Origin: Verrucomicrobiaceae bacterium
Lineage (GTDB): Bacteria; Verrucomicrobiota; Verrucomicrobiia; Verrucomicrobiales; Verrucomicrobiaceae
DNA length: 37,291 bases
Assembly: GCA_028293175.1 (NCBI GenBank)
Contig: JAQGPI010000236.1
Coordinates: 1-37,291 of the forward strand
Direction of reading: 5' to 3'
Shown one piece after another: positions 2,502 to 34,134 of this stretch. The notes beneath the pieces were generated by a model. It worked only from the letters and a program-made list of their open reading frames with translations, did not search any database and had not been told where the DNA came from. Both the position numbers and the translations under genes were made by a program. How positions within the stretch are numbered: position 1 is the stretch's first letter; every line of letters starts with the position of its first letter.

Positions 2502-3918
2502 ACACCCGCGCCACCACGCCCGCCACGCCTGCTGTTTCCGCCACCCGCTCCGCCTGCCAGCGCGGCAGGGTGAGCGTAAAAGTGCAGCCCTGGCCCAGCG
2601 TGCTCTGGCAGTGCATGTTGCCGTTCATTGCCTGCGCCATGCGCTGCACGATCCACAGGCCCAGGCCGTTGGAATTTTCGCCCGCCGTTGGGCGCGGGGT
2701 GAGCTTGACGAACTTTTGAAACAGCTTGCCCTGGTCCTCGGCGCTGAGGCCGGGGCCTTCGTCCTTGATATCAATGTGTATCATGCCGTCCTGCTCACGG
2801 CAGGCGCAGCGGACATTGGTGCCGGGGGGTGAGTACTTCACGGCGTTGGACACCAAGTTGTCCAAGATCTGCTGCACCGCGCCTTCATCCGCCACGGCAA
2901 AGGCGGGCGCGGCGGCGGGGATGCGGCCAAGCGTGATGCTCTTGCGCTCAGCAGCGCGCGCGTGGTCCTTGAGAATGCCTTGCAGCAGGGTTTCCACGCT
3001 GCATCGCTCCTCTTTGAAACGCAGCGATCCTTCCTCGATGCGCTTCACCTCCAGCAGGTTGCGGATGATGTCGAGCATGCGCTTGGACAGTGACTGGATG
3101 CCCTGCGTCCATTGCAGGCGCTCGGCATCTGGGTGGTCGGGAAACATGAGCAGCAGCTCCGCATAGCCTAGCACGCCGCCGAGCGGATTGTTCAGATCGT
3201 GCGCGGCGATCTTCATGAACTCATCCTTCTCCTGGATCAGCTTGTTGAGATGCTGATTGGCCATCCCCAGTTCGGAAATGGCCAGCTCCATCTGGCGGAA
3301 CGCGCGGGCGCGGGTGCGCTCGAAGGTGAAGCCCAGCAGCGTCAGGAAACACACCAGCCCGGCGTAGCCCACGAGGTTGATAAAGTGGTGCCACTCGGGC
3401 GGGTAAGTACGCGCCACGTGCAGTCCGCGCATCTCGGCATAACCAAAGCCCAGCGCGATCACCAAGCACACGGCGGACCATGTTAGCGCGGCCTTCAAAT
3501 CCAGCAGCAGGAGGGCGCACAGCGGGATGGCCGCCAGCCAGGCGATGGCATGGCCCTCGATGCCGCCTTCCACCAGGCCGAGCGCGGTGAAGCCGGTGAC
3601 GAGGATGGCGGAGTAATAATGGCCGGTGAAGCGGAGGCTGGAGCGCTTCTTCAGAAACCAGGGGCCGAGCGTCCACAGCAGGCTGCACAGCAGGATGATG
3701 ACCGCGCCGATGGCATGCCCGATGCCCAGATAGAACAAGGCATAGAGCGTGCCGAAGGCCGCGCCCTGCGCACCGAAACGGATGTGCAGCCGGCTGCGCC
3801 GCAGCAGTTCCTCGTCATGCTTGAGGCTTTCGGGTACAAAGGAGTCGTCCAGCGTGGCGTCGCGTTTGAAGAAACGAGACGCCAGAGTCTTTTGAATGCT
3901 GGCGACGATGGAATTCAC
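2500..3918 (-). CDS. Membrane-bound sensor histidine kinase (HisKA + HATPase_c)
   Basis: N-terminal hydrophobic segments; H-box AAHDLNNPLGGVLGYAELL; N-box ILDNLVSNAVKYSPPG; G-boxes IKDEGPGLS and NGLGLWIVQRM. Confidence 0.92.
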   Translation of the reverse strand: MNSIVASIQKTLASRFFKRDATLDDSFVPESLKHDEELLRRSRLHIRFGAQGAAFGTLYALFYLGIGHAIGAVIILLCSLLWTLGPWFLKKRSSLRFTGHYYSAILVTGFTALGLVEGGIEGHAIAWLAAIPLCALLLLDLKAALTWSAVCLVIALGFGYAEMRGLHVARTYPPEWHHFINLVGYAGLVCFLTLLGFTFERTRARAFRQMELAISELGMANQHLNKLIQEKDEFMKIAAHDLNNPLGGVLGYAELLLMFPDHPDAERLQWTQGIQSLSKRMLDIIRNLLEVKRIEEGSLRFKEERCSVETLLQGILKDHARAAERKSITLGRIPAAAPAFAVADEGAVQQILDNLVSNAVKYSPPGTNVRCACREQDGMIHIDIKDEGPGLSAEDQGKLFQKFVKLTPRPTAGENSNGLGLWIVQRMAQAMNGNMHCQSTLGQGCTFTLTLPRWQAERVAETAGVAGVVARV

Positions 3919-22033: not shown

Positions 22034-25000
22034 ATGCCTGAGCAGAATCAAAACGAGGGAAACCCGGCAGCAAAGACAAAAGCGCTTCCGCACAGTGAGC
22101 TGCCGCCCGGCGTGACACTGCGGCACACGCTGGCAGGGCATAAGGGGGTTGTTCGCAGCGCAGTTTTCGATCCCTGGGGCCAGACGCTGGCCAGTGCGAG
22201 TGGGGACCAAACGATCAAGTTCTGGGATGCCGCCAGCGGCGAACTGCTGCGCACCCAGGAAGGGCACCACGATAAAGTTCGGAGCGTGACCTTCGATTCC
22301 ACGGGCCGACTCCTAGCCGGCGGGAATGAAGACGGGACGATCAGTATTTGGGAGGCAGCCAGCGGCCATTGCTTGCACCGGTTGGCAGGGCACCAAGGGC
22401 GGGTCCTAAGCTTGGTCTTCGATTCCTCCGGCCAAACCCTGGCGAGTGGGAGCGAGGACAAGATGGTCCGTCTATGGGACGTGGCAAGCGGTCGACTACT
22501 ACGCACCTTGCGAGGGCATCAAGGTGAGGTCAAGAGTGTAGCGTTCGATCCCTTGGGTCGGACTTGGGCCAGCGGAAGTTGGGATGGCACGGTCAAGCTC
22601 TGGGAGGTGGCCAGCGGCAAGCTCCTTGACACTCTAGCAGCGCATCGGTCTTCGGTATGCAGCGTGGCCTTTGACCCCACGGGCCGAACCTTGGCTAGCG
22701 CGAGTGTAGACGATACGATCAAGCTATGGGATCTGACCAACGGCCGCCTGTTGCGCACGCTTGAGAGCCACACCGACACTGTTTCCCATCTGGCTTTCTC
22801 CAAGTATTCAAGGCTGCTCGCCTCGAAGAGTTTTGACGGCACGGTTCGCCTGTGGAGCTGCGAGTCATGGGAGTGTCTGGCGGTGATTCCTATACCCGGT
22901 CAACCGTACGGCGATATTGCCGCCCTGGACTTTCACCCCACCTTGCCCTGGCTGGTCACCGATGCCTCCAGCCCCGGCTCGCCATACGGCACCCTGGGCG
23001 AACTCCTCAAAATCTGGGAGCTGAACATCGACATCCTGTTTGGCAAGGCCGCAGGAGCCCGACCACTCCCTCCGGCCTCGCATCATACCACGGCGAAGGT
23101 GGTGCTGGTGGGGGATTCTGGCGTGGGCAAGACGGGGCTGGGCTGGCGGCTGGCGCATGGCGAATTCAAAGAGCATGCCTCCACCCATGGCCAGCAGTTC
23201 TGGGTGATGCCGGAACTGGGTACGCGTCGCGCTGACGGCACGGAGTGCGAGGCGATCCTGTGGGATCTGGCCGGGCAGCCGGACTACCGGCTGATCCATG
23301 CGCTGTTCCTGGATGATGCGGATCTGGCGCTGGTGCTCTTCGATCCTACGGACACGCGCGATCCGCTGCACGGGGTGGAGTTTTGGCTGAAGCAGTTCCA
23401 CACCTGCGCCACGAACGCCAAGTGCCCGGTAGTGCTGGTGGCGGCCCGCGCGGACCGTGGCGCACCCTCGCTGACGGTGGCGGAGCTGGACGCCTTCTGC
23501 CAGCAGCGGGGACTGAGCGGCTACTACCGCACCAGCGCCAAGGCGGGCGAGGGGCTGGCGGAACTGGTGGCACGGATGCAGCAACTGATCCCCTGGGAGA
23601 CGAAGCCCGCCACCACCACAACCCAGACCTTCAAGCGGGTGAAGGATTTTGTTTTGGGACTGAAGGAGCAGGCCGATGGCGGGCCCATCGCGGTGCGTTG
23701 GCCGACGCTGCGCGAGCTGCTGGCGCGCACGGATGCGGCCTGGGAATTCACCGATGCGGAGATGCAGACGGCGGTGGGGCACCTGGAAAACTACGGCTAC
23801 GTGCGGCGGCTGCACACCTCGCAGGGGGAGGAGCGCGTGCTGCTGAAGCCGGACCTGCTCAACAACCTCGCGGCCTCGTTCATCCTGGAGGCGCGGCGCA
23901 ATGACAAGGGCCTGGGCGCGCTGGAGGAGAAACGACTGCTAGCGGGCGGCTATCGGTTTCCCGAACTCACGGGGCTGGCCAAGCCGGAGCAGGACATCCT
24001 GGTGGATGCGGCGGCGCTGCTGTTCCTGGAGCGGCACGTGTGCTTCCGCGAGCAGACGCTGGACGGCCAGGGCTACTTGGTTTTCCCGGAACTGATCAAT
24101 TTGAAAATGCCGCCGGTGGCGGACACGGAGCCGGTGGTGGAGGGCGCGGCCTACACGGTGAGCGGCGCGGTGGAAAATGTGTACGCTTCGCTGGTGGTGC
24201 TGCTGGGCTATACGCAGACCTTCACCCGCACGGCACAATGGCAGGCGCAGGCGCGCTACGAGGTGGGCGGCGGCGCGGTGTGTGGCTTCCGCCAGGAGAC
24301 GGCGCGCGATGGCGGCCTGGACCTGATACTGTACTTTTGCACCAATGTGGAGAGCCCGGTGCGGATGCTGTTCCAGGGCATGTTCGAATGTTTCCTGCAA
24401 CGGCGGAACCTGACGGTCACCCGCTATGAACCTGTGGCCTGCGGCAAATGCGGCCATGCGTTGGACCGTGCGGTGGTGCGGCACCGCACGCGTGAGGGCA
24501 AGACCTTTGCCTTCTGCAACGACTGCGGCGAAAAGCTGTCGCTGCCGCAGGCGCAGGAGCCCATCCAGCTCACCCACGCGCTGCAGGAAAAGGTAGAGGC
24601 CCAGCGCCTTGTGGCCGGTCGGCGCACGCTTTTCGAGCAGGCCGTATTCCGCTTGCAGGCCTATGTGAAGGACGAGCACCTGCCCGCGCCGGAGTGTTTC
24701 ATCAGCTATGCCTGGGGCGTGCCGGAGCACGAGCGCTGGGTGGAGAAGCAACTGGCGACGGACCTGCAAAAAGCGGGGCTCAAAGTGCTGCTCGACAAGT
24801 GGGAGAACCATCGGATCGGCTCCAGCATCGCGCGGTTTGTCGAATTGATCGAGGAGTGCGACCTGATGGTTGTCGTTGGAACACCGCTTTATCGTCAGAA
24901 GGCTAAGAACGTGGTGTCCCCCAAAGGCAGTGTGGTGGCTGCGGAGTGGGATATGGCCGGCATTCGCCTGCTGTCCACGGAAGCAGCGAAGCAGACGGTG

Positions 25001-25198
25001 CTGCCTGTGCTGCGGGAGGGTGACGGGGCCAAGGCGTTCCCGCCGCTTCTACGGGGTCGCTTTTATGCCGATTTCCGCGACGACAAGACCTACTTCCTGA
25101 CGGTCTTCGACCTGATCCTGAGTCTCTACAACATCGCGCCAAACCACCCCGCCGTAGCGGACCTGCGGGAGTCCTTGAGCGGGCCGGAGATGCGGTAG
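22034..25198 (+). CDS. WD40 - Roc/Ras-like GTPase - COR-like - zinc ribbon - TIR-like multidomain protein
   Basis: Seven WD40 blades of about 42 aa (e.g. LLRTLRGHQGEVKSVAFDPLGRTWASGSWDGTVKLWEVASGK); P-loop VVLVGDSGVGKT; WDLAGQ switch; TSAKAG; CGKCG...CNDCG; ECFISYAWGVPEHERWVEKQLATDLQKAGLKVLLDKWENHRIGSSIARFVELIEECDLMVVVGTPLY. Confidence 0.9.
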   Translation: MPEQNQNEGNPAAKTKALPHSELPPGVTLRHTLAGHKGVVRSAVFDPWGQTLASASGDQTIKFWDAASGELLRTQEGHHDKVRSVTFDSTGRLLAGGNEDGTISIWEAASGHCLHRLAGHQGRVLSLVFDSSGQTLASGSEDKMVRLWDVASGRLLRTLRGHQGEVKSVAFDPLGRTWASGSWDGTVKLWEVASGKLLDTLAAHRSSVCSVAFDPTGRTLASASVDDTIKLWDLTNGRLLRTLESHTDTVSHLAFSKYSRLLASKSFDGTVRLWSCESWECLAVIPIPGQPYGDIAALDFHPTLPWLVTDASSPGSPYGTLGELLKIWELNIDILFGKAAGARPLPPASHHTTAKVVLVGDSGVGKTGLGWRLAHGEFKEHASTHGQQFWVMPELGTRRADGTECEAILWDLAGQPDYRLIHALFLDDADLALVLFDPTDTRDPLHGVEFWLKQFHTCATNAKCPVVLVAARADRGAPSLTVAELDAFCQQRGLSGYYRTSAKAGEGLAELVARMQQLIPWETKPATTTTQTFKRVKDFVLGLKEQADGGPIAVRWPTLRELLARTDAAWEFTDAEMQTAVGHLENYGYVRRLHTSQGEERVLLKPDLLNNLAASFILEARRNDKGLGALEEKRLLAGGYRFPELTGLAKPEQDILVDAAALLFLERHVCFREQTLDGQGYLVFPELINLKMPPVADTEPVVEGAAYTVSGAVENVYASLVVLLGYTQTFTRTAQWQAQARYEVGGGAVCGFRQETARDGGLDLILYFCTNVESPVRMLFQGMFECFLQRRNLTVTRYEPVACGKCGHALDRAVVRHRTREGKTFAFCNDCGEKLSLPQAQEPIQLTHALQEKVEAQRLVAGRRTLFEQAVFRLQAYVKDEHLPAPECFISYAWGVPEHERWVEKQLATDLQKAGLKVLLDKWENHRIGSSIARFVELIEECDLMVVVGTPLYRQKAKNVVSPKGSVVAAEWDMAGIRLLSTEAAKQTVLPVLREGDGAKAFPPLLRGRFYADFRDDKTYFLTVFDLILSLYNIAPNHPAVADLRESLSGPEMR

Positions 25199-26599: not shown

Positions 26600-26733
26600 G
26601 AGCGGCCCGGAATTAAGCACGGAACGGCGAGTGAGTCGTCGGGAAACCAGCAGGGTAGGAAGTGCGAAGGGGATCGGGGCACCCTTGTGGCTCCCTTTGC
26701 TCAATATACCAGCGCAACAAACTTCTGGTAATT

Positions 26734-29700
26734 ATGGAAAAAGCCTCTAAATTAAGGCTGAACAAACATTTAATGCCCCATAACCGACACCCTGTACCCA
26801 AGGAGCCGAGCGCTCCTGTTGCGTGCTTCCTAGCCTTCCGGCGAGGGGGCCGCGCAGTACTGGGCATGGTTGCGGGGCTGCTGGCTCTCAGTGCGCAGGC
26901 TCACAATCTGGACATGCGCACGGATTACCTGGGCTACGACAAGGCCACGCTCGATCTGTTCCAGGCGCGCGCTGCCTTGGGCCAGACCTTGATCCAGGTA
27001 GGCGATACCATCGGGCTGCTAATGAAGGCGACGCCTAATCTTGGCACGCCAACGGGCGCGGGCGGCTACTCCACCTTCTTCATCCCGGTGGGCTCGCAGT
27101 TGCAGAAAGCCGAGTACGGCCGCCTCGATGCCACCGGCGCGTTTGTTGCCTCCGCCGTGAAAGGCCAGTCCATCCTCGCCCTGGGCGATGGCGCATGGGG
27201 CTCCCGACTCACCACCGGCCTCATCGGACTGCAACTGGGCCCCAACATCAATGGCCAGACGGCGAATGCGGTGAGCAGCACCGGCCTCAACAACGGCACG
27301 ATGGTCGGCGTGTACTCCGATACCGGCATCTTCTATTCCACCGATCCCAAGACCGCCTGGCAGAGCTGGGTGAACACCGGTGGCCTGGATAACAATCAAG
27401 GCACCCCGGCAGACAACTCCGTGCTCACCAGTTCCGGCAGCGCGGTGGTCCCCTCCACCCGCTGGGATGCGGAGCAATTGCTTGCCTTTGGCGTGCTCTC
27501 CCCCACGCTCGCTTTTCTCGATCCGGCAGATGCCCGCGGCAATGCTCCGTGGGGCATGGCTAGCGCCGTCGCCGGGCCGGAAAGCGGCTACGCCTGGGCC
27601 TTCAACAAGACCTACTGGGACTCGCACGCCTCAGACCCCAGCCGCGCGAAGAACTCCATCGCCGTGGGCCCTTGGAAACGCCTCAAGTACGATGGCAGCC
27701 AGTCATCCAAGGACACGCCAGGCTTGAAGAGCACCGCCACCGGCTACTCGGCGGCAGACGCGGGCGACATCGGTTACGACCTCAGCGCGGCTCATCCTCT
27801 GCCTGAAACCAAGAGCTGGACCGACAACAGCAGCCCCAAGGCCGTGCGCATCGCCTGGGGCAATACCGAGCTTTACCGTCCCGAGTACGCGCGCATTCAG
27901 ATCAAGATCATCAAGGGCCCGGGCGAGCTCAAGTCGCCCTTCGATTCCGCCGGATTCCTGCAAGCCTATGCCGATACCTTTGGCGGCGATGCCGGCGGTG
28001 AGTACAACAACTTCGACCACCTCTGGCACTACTACAAGCCCACCACCGCCCAGCTCGCGGGCAGGCCCTTCATCTTCAAGCAAGTGTCCAAGCCGCTGGT
28101 CATGCCCAATGAAGTCTTCTCCTACAGCCTGTGGGTGATCAATTTCGGTTCTCAAACCCTCACTAACGTGCAGGTGACAGACAACCTGCCCGCCGGCGAG
28201 CAGTTCCTCAGCGCCGTGCCCGCCGCCTCCAGCGGGCCGAATCCACTGGTGTGGAATTTTGGTTCCCTGGCACCGCAGGCGATCAGGCAGATTACCGTCA
28301 ATGTGAAGGCCGTGGGCACCGGCGTGATGACCAACGTGGCCACTTCCAAGAGCGACCAGTTCCCGCCGGAGACCACCACCGACACCACCGTGGGAGCCTC
28401 CCAGGCCCTGCTGTATGCGGACAAGATGGTCACACCCACCACCGCGCAGCCGGGTGGGACCGTGAATTACACCATGATCATTTCCAATGAAGGCACCGCC
28501 TCCAGCGCCGTGCCTTTGGTGATCACGGAAAACCTGCCCTCCGGCTTCTCCTACAACGGCTTCATCTCCGCCGATATCAATGGCGCTCCCGCCGCGCCCG
28601 GGGCCATCTCCATCGCCGTGCCGAGTTCCCAGCACCCGGTGTTTACCGTCAATACCGCCATCGAGGCGCGGAAGTCCGTGGTGATTACCTTCAGGGCAAA
28701 GATCAGCGCCGTGAAGCTGCCGGGCAGCTACTGCAACAGCTACAGTTTCGCTTACAGCGGCAAGGTGAACTCCACCGGCGCGCTCGCCTGCGTGACGGTG
28801 CAGGATGTGCAGCTCGGCATCGGCAACCTGGTCTTCTTTGACGAGAATGGCGACGGCCTTGCCAATCCAGGTGAAGGCGTGCCGGGCGTGAATGTGGAGC
28901 TGTACAAGGAAGACATGACGGCGGGCGTGGATGCGCCGCTGGCCAGCACCGTCACCAATGCCAGCGGCCAGTACCTTTTCGATACGCTGGATGCCGGCAT
29001 CTATTACGTCCACATCCCGAAGACCATGTTCCAGTCCAGCGGCCCCTTGTTTGCCAAGGTGGCGGTGGCGGCCACACTCTTCGGCGATGATGACGTGGGC
29101 CAGGACGGGCTCAACAACAGCGATCCGCCCAGCGATGGCGTGGACAGCAATCTCGTCTACCTCTTCCCCGGTCAGGCACCCACGGATGACAATGGCGAGA
29201 CCGGCGTGGGCAGCGGTTCTGACAATGACAACGACGCCTCGGTGGACCTCACCGTGGACTTCGGTTTCCAGATCCCGGTGGGCATTGGCAACCTCGTGTT
29301 CGTGGATGCCAATCACAATAGCCATGCCGATCCTGGTGAAGGGGTGGGCGGTGTGACGGTGGAAATCTATGATTCCTCCGCACCCGTGAGCACGGGCCAG
29401 TACGTGTTCTCCGCCACGACCACTTCCACCGGCCACTACCTCTTCGATCACCTCAGCACCGGCGATTACTACGTGCACATTCCGGCGCTGAATTTCCAGC
29501 CCGGTCATCCGCTTTCAGGCCTGCTGTCGCTGCCGGATGTCGGCGCTGCGGTTCACTCCGATGACAACGTGGGCGAGAACGGTATCGACGCGATTTCACC
29601 CATCTACACCGGCATCACTTCCGATATGGTCCATCTGGAGCCGGGCCTCGCCCCAGTGGATGCGGGCGGCGGCTCGACCAATGGTGAAACGGGCTTCATG

Positions 29701-32700
29701 GCCAGTGAAGACAACGCCAATGACAACAAGATCGACCTAACCATCGACTTTGGTTTCACCGACAGCCCTTCGCCCGTCTGTGGCGTGGGCAATCTCGTTT
29801 TCAAGGAGGACGATGACAACTTCTTCTATGAGGACGGTGAAGGCGTGGACGGCGTGACGGTGCAGTTGTTCACCGCCTCGGTGAGCAATCCGCTTGCCAC
29901 TCCGCCACTGCGCACAGTCATCACGGCCAATGGCGGTGAGTACTACTTTGGCAACCTCCTGCCCGGCAATTACTACGTCTTCATTCCGCCTTCCAACTTC
30001 TCCGCCAGCGGCGTGCTGAAGAACAGTCTTTCCATTCCTGGCCAGGGCGGTGACGACGGGCAGGACGATGATCAGGATGAGAATGGCGATGATCCCTTTG
30101 ATCCGTCCATTTCCGGCGTGAAGTCGAACGTCTTCAACCTCGCCGTGGGCGCGGAACCAACCGGCAACACCTCGGAATTCGGCTTCAATTCCTACGTCGA
30201 TGACGGCTCCGACACCAACAACGACCTCACCATTGACTTGGGTTTCTATGAACCCGTGGGCGTGGGCAATGTGGTGTTCAAGGATCTCAACGGCAACGGC
30301 CGCTATGATGACGGTGAAGGTGTGGACGGCGTGACCTTGCAGTTGTTCACTCCAGGCCTTGATCCGCAGACGCAACTGCCGGTGGCCGCCACTGTCAGCG
30401 CCAATGGCGGCCGCTACAGCTTCACTCGCTTGCGGCCGGGCAGCTATTTCGTTTACATTCCAGGCGTGAATTTCGGCATCGGCGGCCCGCTCAACGGCCT
30501 GCTTTCCGTGGCTGATACCAACACGAGCTGGGCGGGCGATGACAACCAGGGCGAGGACGGCATCGATTCGCCCAATCCGCTTTCCAACGGCGTCTCCAGC
30601 CGCGAGTTCACCTCGCTGACCGGCGCTGCGCCTACGGATGCGACTACCGAACAAGGAGTGGGTGCGGCCGATGACAACAGCACGGAAGGGGACTTCGATG
30701 CCACCATCGACTTCGGCTTCTACGACAACAACACCCCTATCCTGGGCATTGGCAACGTGGTCTTCAACGACCTCAATCACAACGGCCACTACGAAGCTGG
30801 CGAAGGTGTGCCCGGCGTGCATGTGCGGCTCTTCCCCGCCAATGCCAATCCGCAGAGTGACACGCCCGCTTCCATCTCCATCACCGATGCGGATGGCAGC
30901 TACTTGTTAAGAACAAACGTGCCGGGCGATTACATCGTCTTCATCCCTTACACCGAGTTTGATGTGGGCGGTGCGCTGTTCGGCCTGATGTCGATTCCCA
31001 GCAACGGCACGGATGACGGCGTGGATGATAATGCCGATGAGAACGGTATTGATGCGGTGCATCCGAACATCACCGGCATTAGCTCCGCCGTCGTGCATCT
31101 CGCCCTCGGTACCGAACCCTTGGACGGCACGGCTGAAAGCGGTTTCAACGCGGACAGCGACAATGACGCTGACAGCAATTTCGACCTCACGATCGACTTC
31201 GGTTTCGACCACATTTGCCCCACCATGGTCATCAGCCCGGCGACTCTGCCCGGTGTGACCAAGGAGGAAGGCTATCCGCAAGTGCTGAGCACCACCAGCG
31301 GCTACGGCCCCTACACCTGGGAGATCACCGGCGGTGCTCCGCCGGAGGGTCTCGTACTCAGTCCTACCGGCCAGTTCCTTGGCACCGCCACGGATGTGGG
31401 CGTGTACAACTTCAGCGTGCAGGTGACGGATGCCACCGGCTGTACCGGCACGGCGAACTATCAGGTGACCGTCTCGCCCATCCCCACCGTGGGCCTGGGC
31501 AACTGCGTCTATCTGGATGTGAACCACAACGGCGTGAACGATGGCAATGAAGGCCTCGCGGATGTGGAGTTGGAGCTTTTCCGTGCTGGTCAGGACCCGC
31601 TCATCGACGGCCCGCTCGCTGAAGTGGATACCGATGCCACCGGCCGCTACAGCTTTGAAGGGCTCACCCCCGGCGATTACTTCCTCTACATCCCGCCCAC
31701 CGAATTCGCCGTCGGCAGGCCGCTCTATGGCTGCCTCTCCGTGCCCGGTGCCGCTGCTGACAACGGCGTTGATGACAACCTGCCGGGCAATGACAATGGC
31801 ATCGACAACGCTCAACCGGAACTTAACGGCCTCTTCTCCAATGCCATGCATCTGGCACTCGGCACCGAGCCCACGGACGGCTCCACGGAAACCGGTTTTG
31901 ACGTCACGCATGACAATGCCAATGGCAACGATTCGAACTTCGATGCCACCATTGATTTCGGCTTCCAGGCCTCCTGCCCCACCATGGTCGTCACTCCCTC
32001 CACGCTGCCCTCGGCCACGGAAGGCAACGCTTACAACCAGGCGCTCCAGGCCACCGGCGGCGTGGCCCCGGTCACCTTCTCCGTCACCAACGGCATCCTG
32101 CCTTCCGGCATCTCCGTTTCCACCCTGGGAGTGATCGCCGGCACACCGGAAAACCAGGGCGCGTACGCCTTCACCATCCGCGCCACCGATGCCAATGGCT
32201 GCTCCACCGATGTGCCCTCATCGCTCGTTGTCGGGGCCCGGCTCGCGGTCGGTAACCTGGTCTTCTTTGATGCCAATGCCAACGGCCACGCCGATGCGGG
32301 CGAAGGCATCGACGGCGTCACCGTGCAACTCTACCGCAGCACTGATACGCCCGGCACCAGCACGCCGCTGGCCACCGCCACCACGGCGAATGGCGGCCGC
32401 TACCTGATCGATGGACTCGGCTCAGGGCAGTACATCCTGTTCATCCCCAAGGCCATGTTCGCCACGGGTGCACCGCTGGTTAACATGAAGTCCGTGCCCG
32501 GTGCCATGAGCTCGGGTGATGATAACGCCGGGGAGCGCGGTGTGGACAATGCGGTGCCCGCGACCAATGGCATCGCCACGGCTGTCTTCAGCCTCGCCAC
32601 CGGCAGCGCTCCGACCATTGACGACAGTGAAACCGGCACCGATGAAGCCAGCGATGATGCCCGTGATTCCGACATCGATCTCACTCAGGACTTCGGCTTT

Positions 32701-34134
32701 GTGGATGTGAATGCACGGCCCGCCACCTTCACCGCCTGGGCCGGTATCAAAGGCCTCTCCGGCGGCAACGCCCAGCCCACGGCGAATCCGGACGGCGATG
32801 CGTATAACAACCTGATCGAATACTCCCTGGGCCTCAGCCCCACCAGCGGGGCGGATGACATCGGCGCGGTGTTCAGTGTGATACACAATGTGAGCGGTGG
32901 TGTGGACGTGCGCCTGCGCCGCCGTCACGGCAGCCAGGCTGATCTGACCTACACCATCGAGCTGCTGCCGAAGCTGCTCAACGCCACCTGGAGCACGACT
33001 TCCACCTCGCCCTCGATCACCAATAACGCCGACGGCAGCGAGACGCTCAACTTCGCCAGCATCAGCAATGATCTCGCGCTGGCAGGCGGTACTGATGGCT
33101 TTGTGCGCATCCGCGTTTCGCTTGATGCCAATCACGACACCATTGCCGAAGCCACCGCCACCTCCATCATCCTGGGCTGGCAGCGCCGCGCGCTCGGCTT
33201 GCAAAACCAGACCTATGCCGTGCCCTATGCCGCCACCGCTGTCTTCACCGGCACGATCGGCACCGTCACCGGCAACACCATCGACCTCACCGCTGCTGCT
33301 GGCGGCACTAACCTAACAACTCTCTTCGTTACCGGTAAGGAGTACTACATCGAGGCCATGAACGGCACCCAGCAGGGCCACCGCTGGGAGATCAGCGAAG
33401 CCTCCAGCACCGCCACCACTCTTGTGCTTGATCCCACACAGGCCCGCAGCACCCGCACCACCGTTCCCGCCAGCCTCGCGGGCACCCTCGTCGCCCTGCG
33501 CCGCCACTGGTGCGTATCCGATCTCTTCCCGCCCGCCGACTATCACGCCACCAACAGCGCCACCACCGCCGACCAAGTGCTCCTCTGGGACCCTGCCACC
33601 AGCGGCTACGTCACTCTTTGGCTGGCCAATTACTTCGGCCAGTCGCACTGGCATCAGGTCGGCGTCGCCGCACTCAATACCACCGAAGACAACCGCGTTC
33701 TCACGCCCGTGGACGGCTTCTTTGCCCGGCCCCGCGTCGGTGCCGTCACTGCCTTTGCCACCGGCCAGTTGCGCACCTGGCAGTTCGCCATGCCCTTGCA
33801 ACTCGGCACCAATTTTGTCGGCAATCCCTTTCCCATTGCGCAGAGTCCGGTCGAGCGCGTGATGACCACCGCCAACACCTTCACCGGCAAGACCAATCCC
33901 GGGCTGTCTGACCGCATCTACTTCTGGAACGGCGATACCGACAGCACCGCCACTGGCTACACCACTTACCATCTGCTGAAGTCCAGCACCCTGGAGATTT
34001 GGAAGGTCGTCGGCAGCACCGATCTGAGCACCAATCTGGGCCTGCAAAAGCTCTTCCTCAACGCCCGCGCCGGCTTCATCAACAGCATCATCGGCCAGCC
34101 TGATTGGATGATCCCGGCTCCTGCGGTGCCGTAG
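26734..34134 (+). CDS. Giant secreted protein (~2466 aa) with DUF11-like and seven SdrD B/Cna-B-like domains plus two putative-Ig modules
   Basis: Likely start MEKASKLRLNKH; DUF11-like SLWVINFGSQTLTNVQVTDNLPAGEQFL; repeated [IVL]GN[LVC]V[FY]xDxNxNGxxDxGEGVxGVxVxL...DLTIDFGF units; He_PIG-like GGAPPEGLVLSPTGQFLGTA and NGILPSGISVSTLGVIAGTP. Confidence 0.9.
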   Translation: MEKASKLRLNKHLMPHNRHPVPKEPSAPVACFLAFRRGGRAVLGMVAGLLALSAQAHNLDMRTDYLGYDKATLDLFQARAALGQTLIQVGDTIGLLMKATPNLGTPTGAGGYSTFFIPVGSQLQKAEYGRLDATGAFVASAVKGQSILALGDGAWGSRLTTGLIGLQLGPNINGQTANAVSSTGLNNGTMVGVYSDTGIFYSTDPKTAWQSWVNTGGLDNNQGTPADNSVLTSSGSAVVPSTRWDAEQLLAFGVLSPTLAFLDPADARGNAPWGMASAVAGPESGYAWAFNKTYWDSHASDPSRAKNSIAVGPWKRLKYDGSQSSKDTPGLKSTATGYSAADAGDIGYDLSAAHPLPETKSWTDNSSPKAVRIAWGNTELYRPEYARIQIKIIKGPGELKSPFDSAGFLQAYADTFGGDAGGEYNNFDHLWHYYKPTTAQLAGRPFIFKQVSKPLVMPNEVFSYSLWVINFGSQTLTNVQVTDNLPAGEQFLSAVPAASSGPNPLVWNFGSLAPQAIRQITVNVKAVGTGVMTNVATSKSDQFPPETTTDTTVGASQALLYADKMVTPTTAQPGGTVNYTMIISNEGTASSAVPLVITENLPSGFSYNGFISADINGAPAAPGAISIAVPSSQHPVFTVNTAIEARKSVVITFRAKISAVKLPGSYCNSYSFAYSGKVNSTGALACVTVQDVQLGIGNLVFFDENGDGLANPGEGVPGVNVELYKEDMTAGVDAPLASTVTNASGQYLFDTLDAGIYYVHIPKTMFQSSGPLFAKVAVAATLFGDDDVGQDGLNNSDPPSDGVDSNLVYLFPGQAPTDDNGETGVGSGSDNDNDASVDLTVDFGFQIPVGIGNLVFVDANHNSHADPGEGVGGVTVEIYDSSAPVSTGQYVFSATTTSTGHYLFDHLSTGDYYVHIPALNFQPGHPLSGLLSLPDVGAAVHSDDNVGENGIDAISPIYTGITSDMVHLEPGLAPVDAGGGSTNGETGFMASEDNANDNKIDLTIDFGFTDSPSPVCGVGNLVFKEDDDNFFYEDGEGVDGVTVQLFTASVSNPLATPPLRTVITANGGEYYFGNLLPGNYYVFIPPSNFSASGVLKNSLSIPGQGGDDGQDDDQDENGDDPFDPSISGVKSNVFNLAVGAEPTGNTSEFGFNSYVDDGSDTNNDLTIDLGFYEPVGVGNVVFKDLNGNGRYDDGEGVDGVTLQLFTPGLDPQTQLPVAATVSANGGRYSFTRLRPGSYFVYIPGVNFGIGGPLNGLLSVADTNTSWAGDDNQGEDGIDSPNPLSNGVSSREFTSLTGAAPTDATTEQGVGAADDNSTEGDFDATIDFGFYDNNTPILGIGNVVFNDLNHNGHYEAGEGVPGVHVRLFPANANPQSDTPASISITDADGSYLLRTNVPGDYIVFIPYTEFDVGGALFGLMSIPSNGTDDGVDDNADENGIDAVHPNITGISSAVVHLALGTEPLDGTAESGFNADSDNDADSNFDLTIDFGFDHICPTMVISPATLPGVTKEEGYPQVLSTTSGYGPYTWEITGGAPPEGLVLSPTGQFLGTATDVGVYNFSVQVTDATGCTGTANYQVTVSPIPTVGLGNCVYLDVNHNGVNDGNEGLADVELELFRAGQDPLIDGPLAEVDTDATGRYSFEGLTPGDYFLYIPPTEFAVGRPLYGCLSVPGAAADNGVDDNLPGNDNGIDNAQPELNGLFSNAMHLALGTEPTDGSTETGFDVTHDNANGNDSNFDATIDFGFQASCPTMVVTPSTLPSATEGNAYNQALQATGGVAPVTFSVTNGILPSGISVSTLGVIAGTPENQGAYAFTIRATDANGCSTDVPSSLVVGARLAVGNLVFFDANANGHADAGEGIDGVTVQLYRSTDTPGTSTPLATATTANGGRYLIDGLGSGQYILFIPKAMFATGAPLVNMKSVPGAMSSGDDNAGERGVDNAVPATNGIATAVFSLATGSAPTIDDSETGTDEASDDARDSDIDLTQDFGFVDVNARPATFTAWAGIKGLSGGNAQPTANPDGDAYNNLIEYSLGLSPTSGADDIGAVFSVIHNVSGGVDVRLRRRHGSQADLTYTIELLPKLLNATWSTTSTSPSITNNADGSETLNFASISNDLALAGGTDGFVRIRVSLDANHDTIAEATATSIILGWQRRALGLQNQTYAVPYAATAVFTGTIGTVTGNTIDLTAAAGGTNLTTLFVTGKEYYIEAMNGTQQGHRWEISEASSTATTLVLDPTQARSTRTTVPASLAGTLVALRRHWCVSDLFPPADYHATNSATTADQVLLWDPATSGYVTLWLANYFGQSHWHQVGVAALNTTEDNRVLTPVDGFFARPRVGAVTAFATGQLRTWQFAMPLQLGTNFVGNPFPIAQSPVERVMTTANTFTGKTNPGLSDRIYFWNGDTDSTATGYTTYHLLKSSTLEIWKVVGSTDLSTNLGLQKLFLNARAGFINSIIGQPDWMIPAPAVP
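28813..32705 (+). repeat. Seven SdrD/Cna-B-like coding repeats, starting near 28813, 29278, 29782, 30256, 30742, 31489 and 32245
   Basis: Each unit begins with an xGNxVFxDxNxNG-type motif and ends with a D-rich loop plus (D)LTxDFGF; He_PIG-like spacers separate units 5/6 and 6/7. Confidence 0.88.

Follow-up and report, generated by a model that had tools for sequence, protein, structure and literature searches.

A WD40-Roc-COR-TIR gene from a Verrucomicrobiaceae bacterium encodes a putative single-protein immune receptor with a Roco-type switch

The gene and its genomic setting

The window, meaning the whole stretch of 37,291 nucleotides analysed here, is one entire contig of a fragmented Verrucomicrobiaceae genome that is 76% complete. 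It carries a complete gene whose product combines five domains in the following arrangement.

22034..25198, + strand: complete gene, WD40-Roc-COR-zinc ribbon-TIR(SEFIR); intact open reading frame with ATG start, 1,054 aa
22118..23026, + strand: WD40 beta-propeller, presumed sensor (about residues 29-331; PF00400, E 1.7e-64)
23090..23584, + strand: Roc GTPase (residues 353-517; PF08477 Roc, E 2e-20; PF00071 Ras, E 4e-21)
23111..23134, + strand: P-loop GDSGVGKT (residues 360-367)
23585..24436, + strand: divergent COR domain (residues 518-801; hhalign and Foldseek)
24440..24526, + strand: zinc ribbon CxxC...CxxC (residues 803-831)
24575..24673, + strand: long helix between the zinc ribbon and the effector (residues 848-880; predicted structure)
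24689..25135, + strand: TIR domain of SEFIR type, predicted effector (residues 886-1034; profile matches over about residues 879-1034)
24944..24946, + strand: codon for E971, a candidate catalytic glutamate within the TIR fold, by extension from other TIR NADases

A gene for a GAF histidine kinase lies upstream, and downstream an open reading frame without assignment is followed by a gene for a 2,490-aa SdrD_B/DUF11 surface protein. This large predicted surface protein (26662-34134) contains seven SdrD_B-like stretches together with DUF11, SpaA and Ig-like domains. None of the genes flanking 22034-25198 resembles a partner, and an all-against-all BLAST of 778 ORFs neighbouring family members found no conserved partner; the matches formed small clusters of no more than two to five loci, and several of these consist of close relatives or of fragments of the gene. 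The absence of an adjacent partner gene, claimed in a preliminary description made from the sequence alone, is borne out by both comparisons. Elsewhere in the same genome lies a gene for a canonical LRR-Roc-COR Roco with a PF16095 COR domain (G000:C654:12853-13278; L121, L122), a protein distinct from the WD40 family.

A Roc GTPase followed by a divergent COR domain

Relatives were collected by scanning 85,462 species genomes, which yielded 341 pattern matches; 250 of these are relatives, and the best 80 of the 250 were analysed. The P-loop GTPase with GDSGVGKT, WDLAGQ and TSAKAG reported in the preliminary description is present with all three motifs in place and matches both PF00071 and PF08477 over residues 355-517. 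Residues K366, W410, D411, A413, G414, Q415 and D474 are invariant in 43/43 close relatives. As judged from sequence, the PF08477 match and the invariant P-loop and switch II place the GTPase among the Roc domains of the Roco proteins.

The segment behind the GTPase was less readily assigned. The Pfam scan of the protein gave no match to a COR domain (PF16095), and PF16095 searches of the genomes returned other genes, none of them of the WD40-Roc-COR-TIR family. A PDB sequence search with the COR segment returned mainly zinc-finger chance matches, so that a comparison of folds was needed. For profile comparison, one profile was built from the middle segment of 73 relatives and the other from 26 bacterial COR domains of the canonical kind, identified with PF16095; the latter recognises the COR domain of CtRoco (E 3e-71) and LRRK2 (E 6e-17). 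The two profiles were aligned by hhalign collinearly over 297 columns with a probability of 95.1, as against 0.2 for the control in which the canonical COR profile was compared with the TIR profile. The COR-zinc ribbon part modelled alone, without the GTPase, reached a pLDDT of 89 and a pTM of 0.85 and gave TM-scores of about 0.53–0.64 against isolated CtRoco COR chains; when residues 518-869 alone were compared with the PDB by Foldseek, the best 25 matches were all Roco proteins. The predicted structure of residues 353-1054 (pLDDT 87) likewise matches Roco structures. Since hhalign joins the profiles and the best 25 fold matches obtained without the GTPase are all Roco, the middle segment is, on profile comparison and predicted structure, a true but divergent COR domain and the protein a Roc–COR protein. 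The segment had earlier been described as COR-like; Pfam is silent on it, and profile-profile and fold comparison identify it as COR.

The zinc ribbon spans the CxxC...CxxC motif as first described. Three of its cysteines (C803, C828 and C831) are 97-100% conserved and C806 only 65%, and the ribbon is collinear with the cysteine-bearing tail that follows COR in many canonical bacterial Rocos.

The SEFIR-type effector domain

The TIR-like domain that had been placed from near 24692 is supported by three profiles, which refine it to the SEFIR type: PF13676 TIR_2 (E 2e-16), PF08357 SEFIR (E 2e-6) and PADLOC bSEFIR (E 2e-24). Its best solved relatives are bacterial SEFIR domains (PDB 5y8e/5y8f). 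Every one of the SEFIR-type relatives compared (43/43) retains E971. The TIR fold and this conserved glutamate place the domain in the TIR/SEFIR superfamily, with the glutamate as a candidate catalytic residue.

Divergence and exchange of the presumed sensor

Seven tandem WD40 blades had been proposed for residues about 29-331. The range and the WD40 assignment hold; blade positions indicate six regular 42-residue blades and one degenerate blade, the seventh. A PADLOC match to 'HEAT-ARM_XIII' was dismissed as generic WD40 similarity. Mean pairwise identity over 406 pairs is 64% for Roc, 58% for COR, 50% for TIR and 39% for WD40, the last from an alignment of repeats, which is prone to error. 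WD40 identity is lower than COR identity in 385 of the 406 pairs, and the sensor is the fastest-diverging domain, again with the reservation that repeats are easily misaligned. The sensor differs altogether in one relative (L028), in which an AAA_35 ATPase replaces WD40. Another, a member from an archaeal bin (L027:7011-8000), has an N-terminal region without any Pfam match where WD40 would sit.

Two relatives on one contig (L010 and L012, G013 contig 143) are tandem paralogues whose effectors are a SEFIR-type TIR and a guanylate cyclase. Their cores are only about 33% identical, yet the two genes share 84% identity over some 150 bases at the starts of their open reading frames and are close in the last regular WD40 blade too. 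This pattern suggests that sensor parts may have been exchanged between the paralogues.

Exchange of effectors and added modules

The effectors of 73 members comprise TIR_2 (60), DUF4365 (7), guanylate cyclase (4) and metallophosphoesterase (2); the three DUF4365 forms that were checked (L011, L081, L084) contain an N-terminal TIR as well. Both SEFIR-type and classical TIRs are among the effectors exchanged between relatives. One member (L176) has guanylate cyclase and TIR within one chain, and in another (L074) a metallophosphoesterase and a NACHT module are fused to a related core. In the Streptomyces members, L061 and L175, the motifs usual for the SEFIR domain are missing from it, and when L050, L061 and L175 were scanned alone Pfam detected only the following, different TIR_2. 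Such a degenerate SEFIR domain with a different TIR_2 appended occurs in L050-L054, L056, L057, L059, L061 and L175. Because the appended TIRs differ from lineage to lineage, independent additions are suggested.

The preliminary description proposed that a Roc GTPase stands in place of the STAND ATPase. This is correct for the window protein, in which the domain scan found no NACHT or NB-ARC, but not for the family, since one relative (L089:4947-9992) carries NNH7, NACHT, WD40, Roc-COR and TIR in a single protein, which joins a STAND module to a Roco switch. Replacement of STAND modules by the GTPase was accordingly dropped as a rule.

Distribution and transfer

The named phyla that contain relatives number at least 13, two archaeal ones included; the archaeal members derive from metagenome bins, in which binning error is possible. 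Isolates among the hosts include Nitrosomonas, Bradyrhizobium, Phytohabitans, Pedobacter, Niastella and Streptomyces. A tree of the core resolves two strong clades, one of 53 rows with the SEFIR-type effector, the window gene included, and one of 22 rows with varied effectors. It requires at least 30 phylum changes for 13 phyla, where 12 would be enough were the phyla kept apart, and 5–6 effector changes; 24 of its 72 inner branches are weak, which makes these counts approximate. The 30 phylum changes indicate that gene transfer has been rampant.

The gene is also rare. In three phyla, less than 1% of the genomes sampled carry it: 1/291 in Verrucomicrobiota, the one being the window's own genome, and 2/293 and 2/296 in the phyla to which Adonisia and Pirellulaceae belong, with the seed genome counted in each. 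With a Roc–COR–TIR query the count was 3 of 95 relatives. Among 72,556 plasmid records three members were found, on cyanobacterial conjugative or mobilisable plasmids, two of the three being conjugative. One member (L178) has a phage-type integrase and a transposase nearby.

Defence context

The preliminary description had proposed to look for enrichment near defence genes; no such enrichment was seen when PADLOC was applied to four genes either side of 20 members and to control regions of the same contigs. The PADLOC models that gave a match numbered 23 among 143 neighbour proteins versus 52 among 141 control proteins, a null result limited by the small sample of 20 members and by the 2023 library. 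Searches of phage records and viral contigs found no family member.

Comparison with known systems

Like the Roco proteins CtRoco, MbRoco2 and LRRK1/2, the window protein places a full COR-A/COR-B fold directly after its Roc GTPase; it differs in carrying WD40 instead of LRRs and TIR instead of a kinase, and in a COR domain too divergent for PF16095. All prokaryotic Rocos identified by 2019 were LRR-Roc-COR proteins, according to a review of that year (PMC6337361). Proteins of the form LRR-AP-GTPase-COR with at least 24 interchangeable C-terminal domains, TIR included, were predicted in 2021 to be conflict systems (PMC8195603, Figure 6D). The window protein shares their logic of repeat sensor, Roc-COR switch and interchangeable effector, whereas its sensor is WD40 and not LRR; the portion of that paper considered here makes no mention of a WD40 form, a divergent-COR clade or a SEFIR-type effector. 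No description of the WD40-Roc-COR-TIR family was found in the parts of the literature searched. To that extent, the general concept of LRR–Roc–COR with variable effectors is already known, and the WD40 form with a COR domain outside the Pfam model appears to be a new variant.

The antiphage protein bSEFIR (PADLOC PDLC03957) shares the SEFIR-type TIR, but only profile positions 36-183 of 412 match and the remainder finds nothing in the window protein, which is thus not a full-length bSEFIR. STAND/NLR proteins (APAF-1 with WD40; bacterial NACHT/Avs) likewise join a repeat sensor, an NTPase switch and an effector in one chain, whereas the switch of the window protein is a Ras-like GTPase of another fold and not a STAND ATPase. 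Thoeris (ThsB TIR and ThsA) offers a similar TIR effector logic; unlike it, the window gene has no ThsA-like partner adjoining it.

Interpretation

We infer, at a probability of roughly 0.58, that the gene encodes a GTP-switched, one-protein NLR-like receptor of immunity or abortive infection built on a Roco switch. This reading draws on the architecture, the intact motifs, the Roco-like model, the fast sensor, the exchanged effectors, transfer, patchiness, the plasmid members, the single gene and the precedents. Swapped sensors and effectors in relatives scattered by transfer are the usual look of immune receptors. The earlier proposal of sensor, switch and effector in one chain finds backing in the domain scans, the folds, the fast sensor, the exchanged effectors and the patchy transfer.

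In the mechanism we propose, the propeller would recognise an invader-derived or damage signal, and binding would open the propeller-Roc interface and promote GTP loading. The COR dimer would then rearrange, as in CtRoco, in which GTP drives a large opening and monomerisation (PMC11052575); the direction of switching and the oligomeric state are taken from that protein. The rearrangement could free or cluster the TIR domains, which would consume NAD+ or make an NAD-derived signal, and growth stop or cell death might follow in time to forestall the spread of a phage or another invader. The switch would be reset by GTP hydrolysis.

The lack of defence-gene enrichment and of phage or viral members counts against an immune function, and the same lack of enrichment speaks for a general signalling Roco, serving for instance stress or developmental control unrelated to invaders. 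Eukaryotic Rocos do regulate the cytoskeleton and development (PMC4104024), and with guanylate cyclase in some related cores signalling fits as well as killing. A rare, patchy and rampantly transferred gene with a fast sensor and swapped, toxin-like effectors is nevertheless a rare look among conserved physiological regulators, and we regard this explanation as quite improbable. The cyclases bear also on the effector itself. The protein may be an invader-sensing receptor whose SEFIR-type TIR provides a platform for assembly or produces a signal nucleotide and does not deplete NAD+. The closest solved relatives are SEFIR domains and not characterised NADase TIRs, and in related cores the effector position is occupied by guanylate cyclase, which stands alongside TIR in L176; yet the invariance of E971 suggests catalysis, and no separate target protein is encoded nearby, which leaves this version unlikely, if deserving of attention.

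We see very little likelihood that the family responds to plasmids or to mobile elements of another kind, or that it is a mobile element's own competition gene, in place of phage defence. The three plasmid members and the integrase and transposase near L178 would agree with it, but nearly all members lie on ordinary contigs and so few of the plasmid records carry one.

A wider proposal, which we hold tentatively and at somewhat less than even odds, is that the relatives form a superfamily of one-gene immune receptors in bacteria and archaea, widely transferred and as yet uncatalogued, with a WD40 sensor, an LRRK2-like Roc-COR switch and exchangeable effectors. The physiological functions of prokaryotic Rocos, which are relatives of the Parkinson's-disease protein LRRK2, have been reported as largely unknown (PMC6337361), and the superfamily, if real, would provide a first such function and a phage-based assay. 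Were the window protein an immune receptor, Roco switching could be tested by way of a phenotype in growth or in phage infection, and the STAND ATPases would be joined by a Ras-type GTPase as a switch of single-protein immunity.

Further arrangements among the relatives

On the conjugative Nostoc plasmid p057_H (L177), a gene for a WD40-Roc-core-metallophosphoesterase protein is immediately followed by a NACHT gene. In L017 the core ends before the effector and a related fragment lies in the next open reading frame (243-2522 and 2607-3503), an arrangement that may represent a split gene or a frameshift; L023 and L066 are similar.
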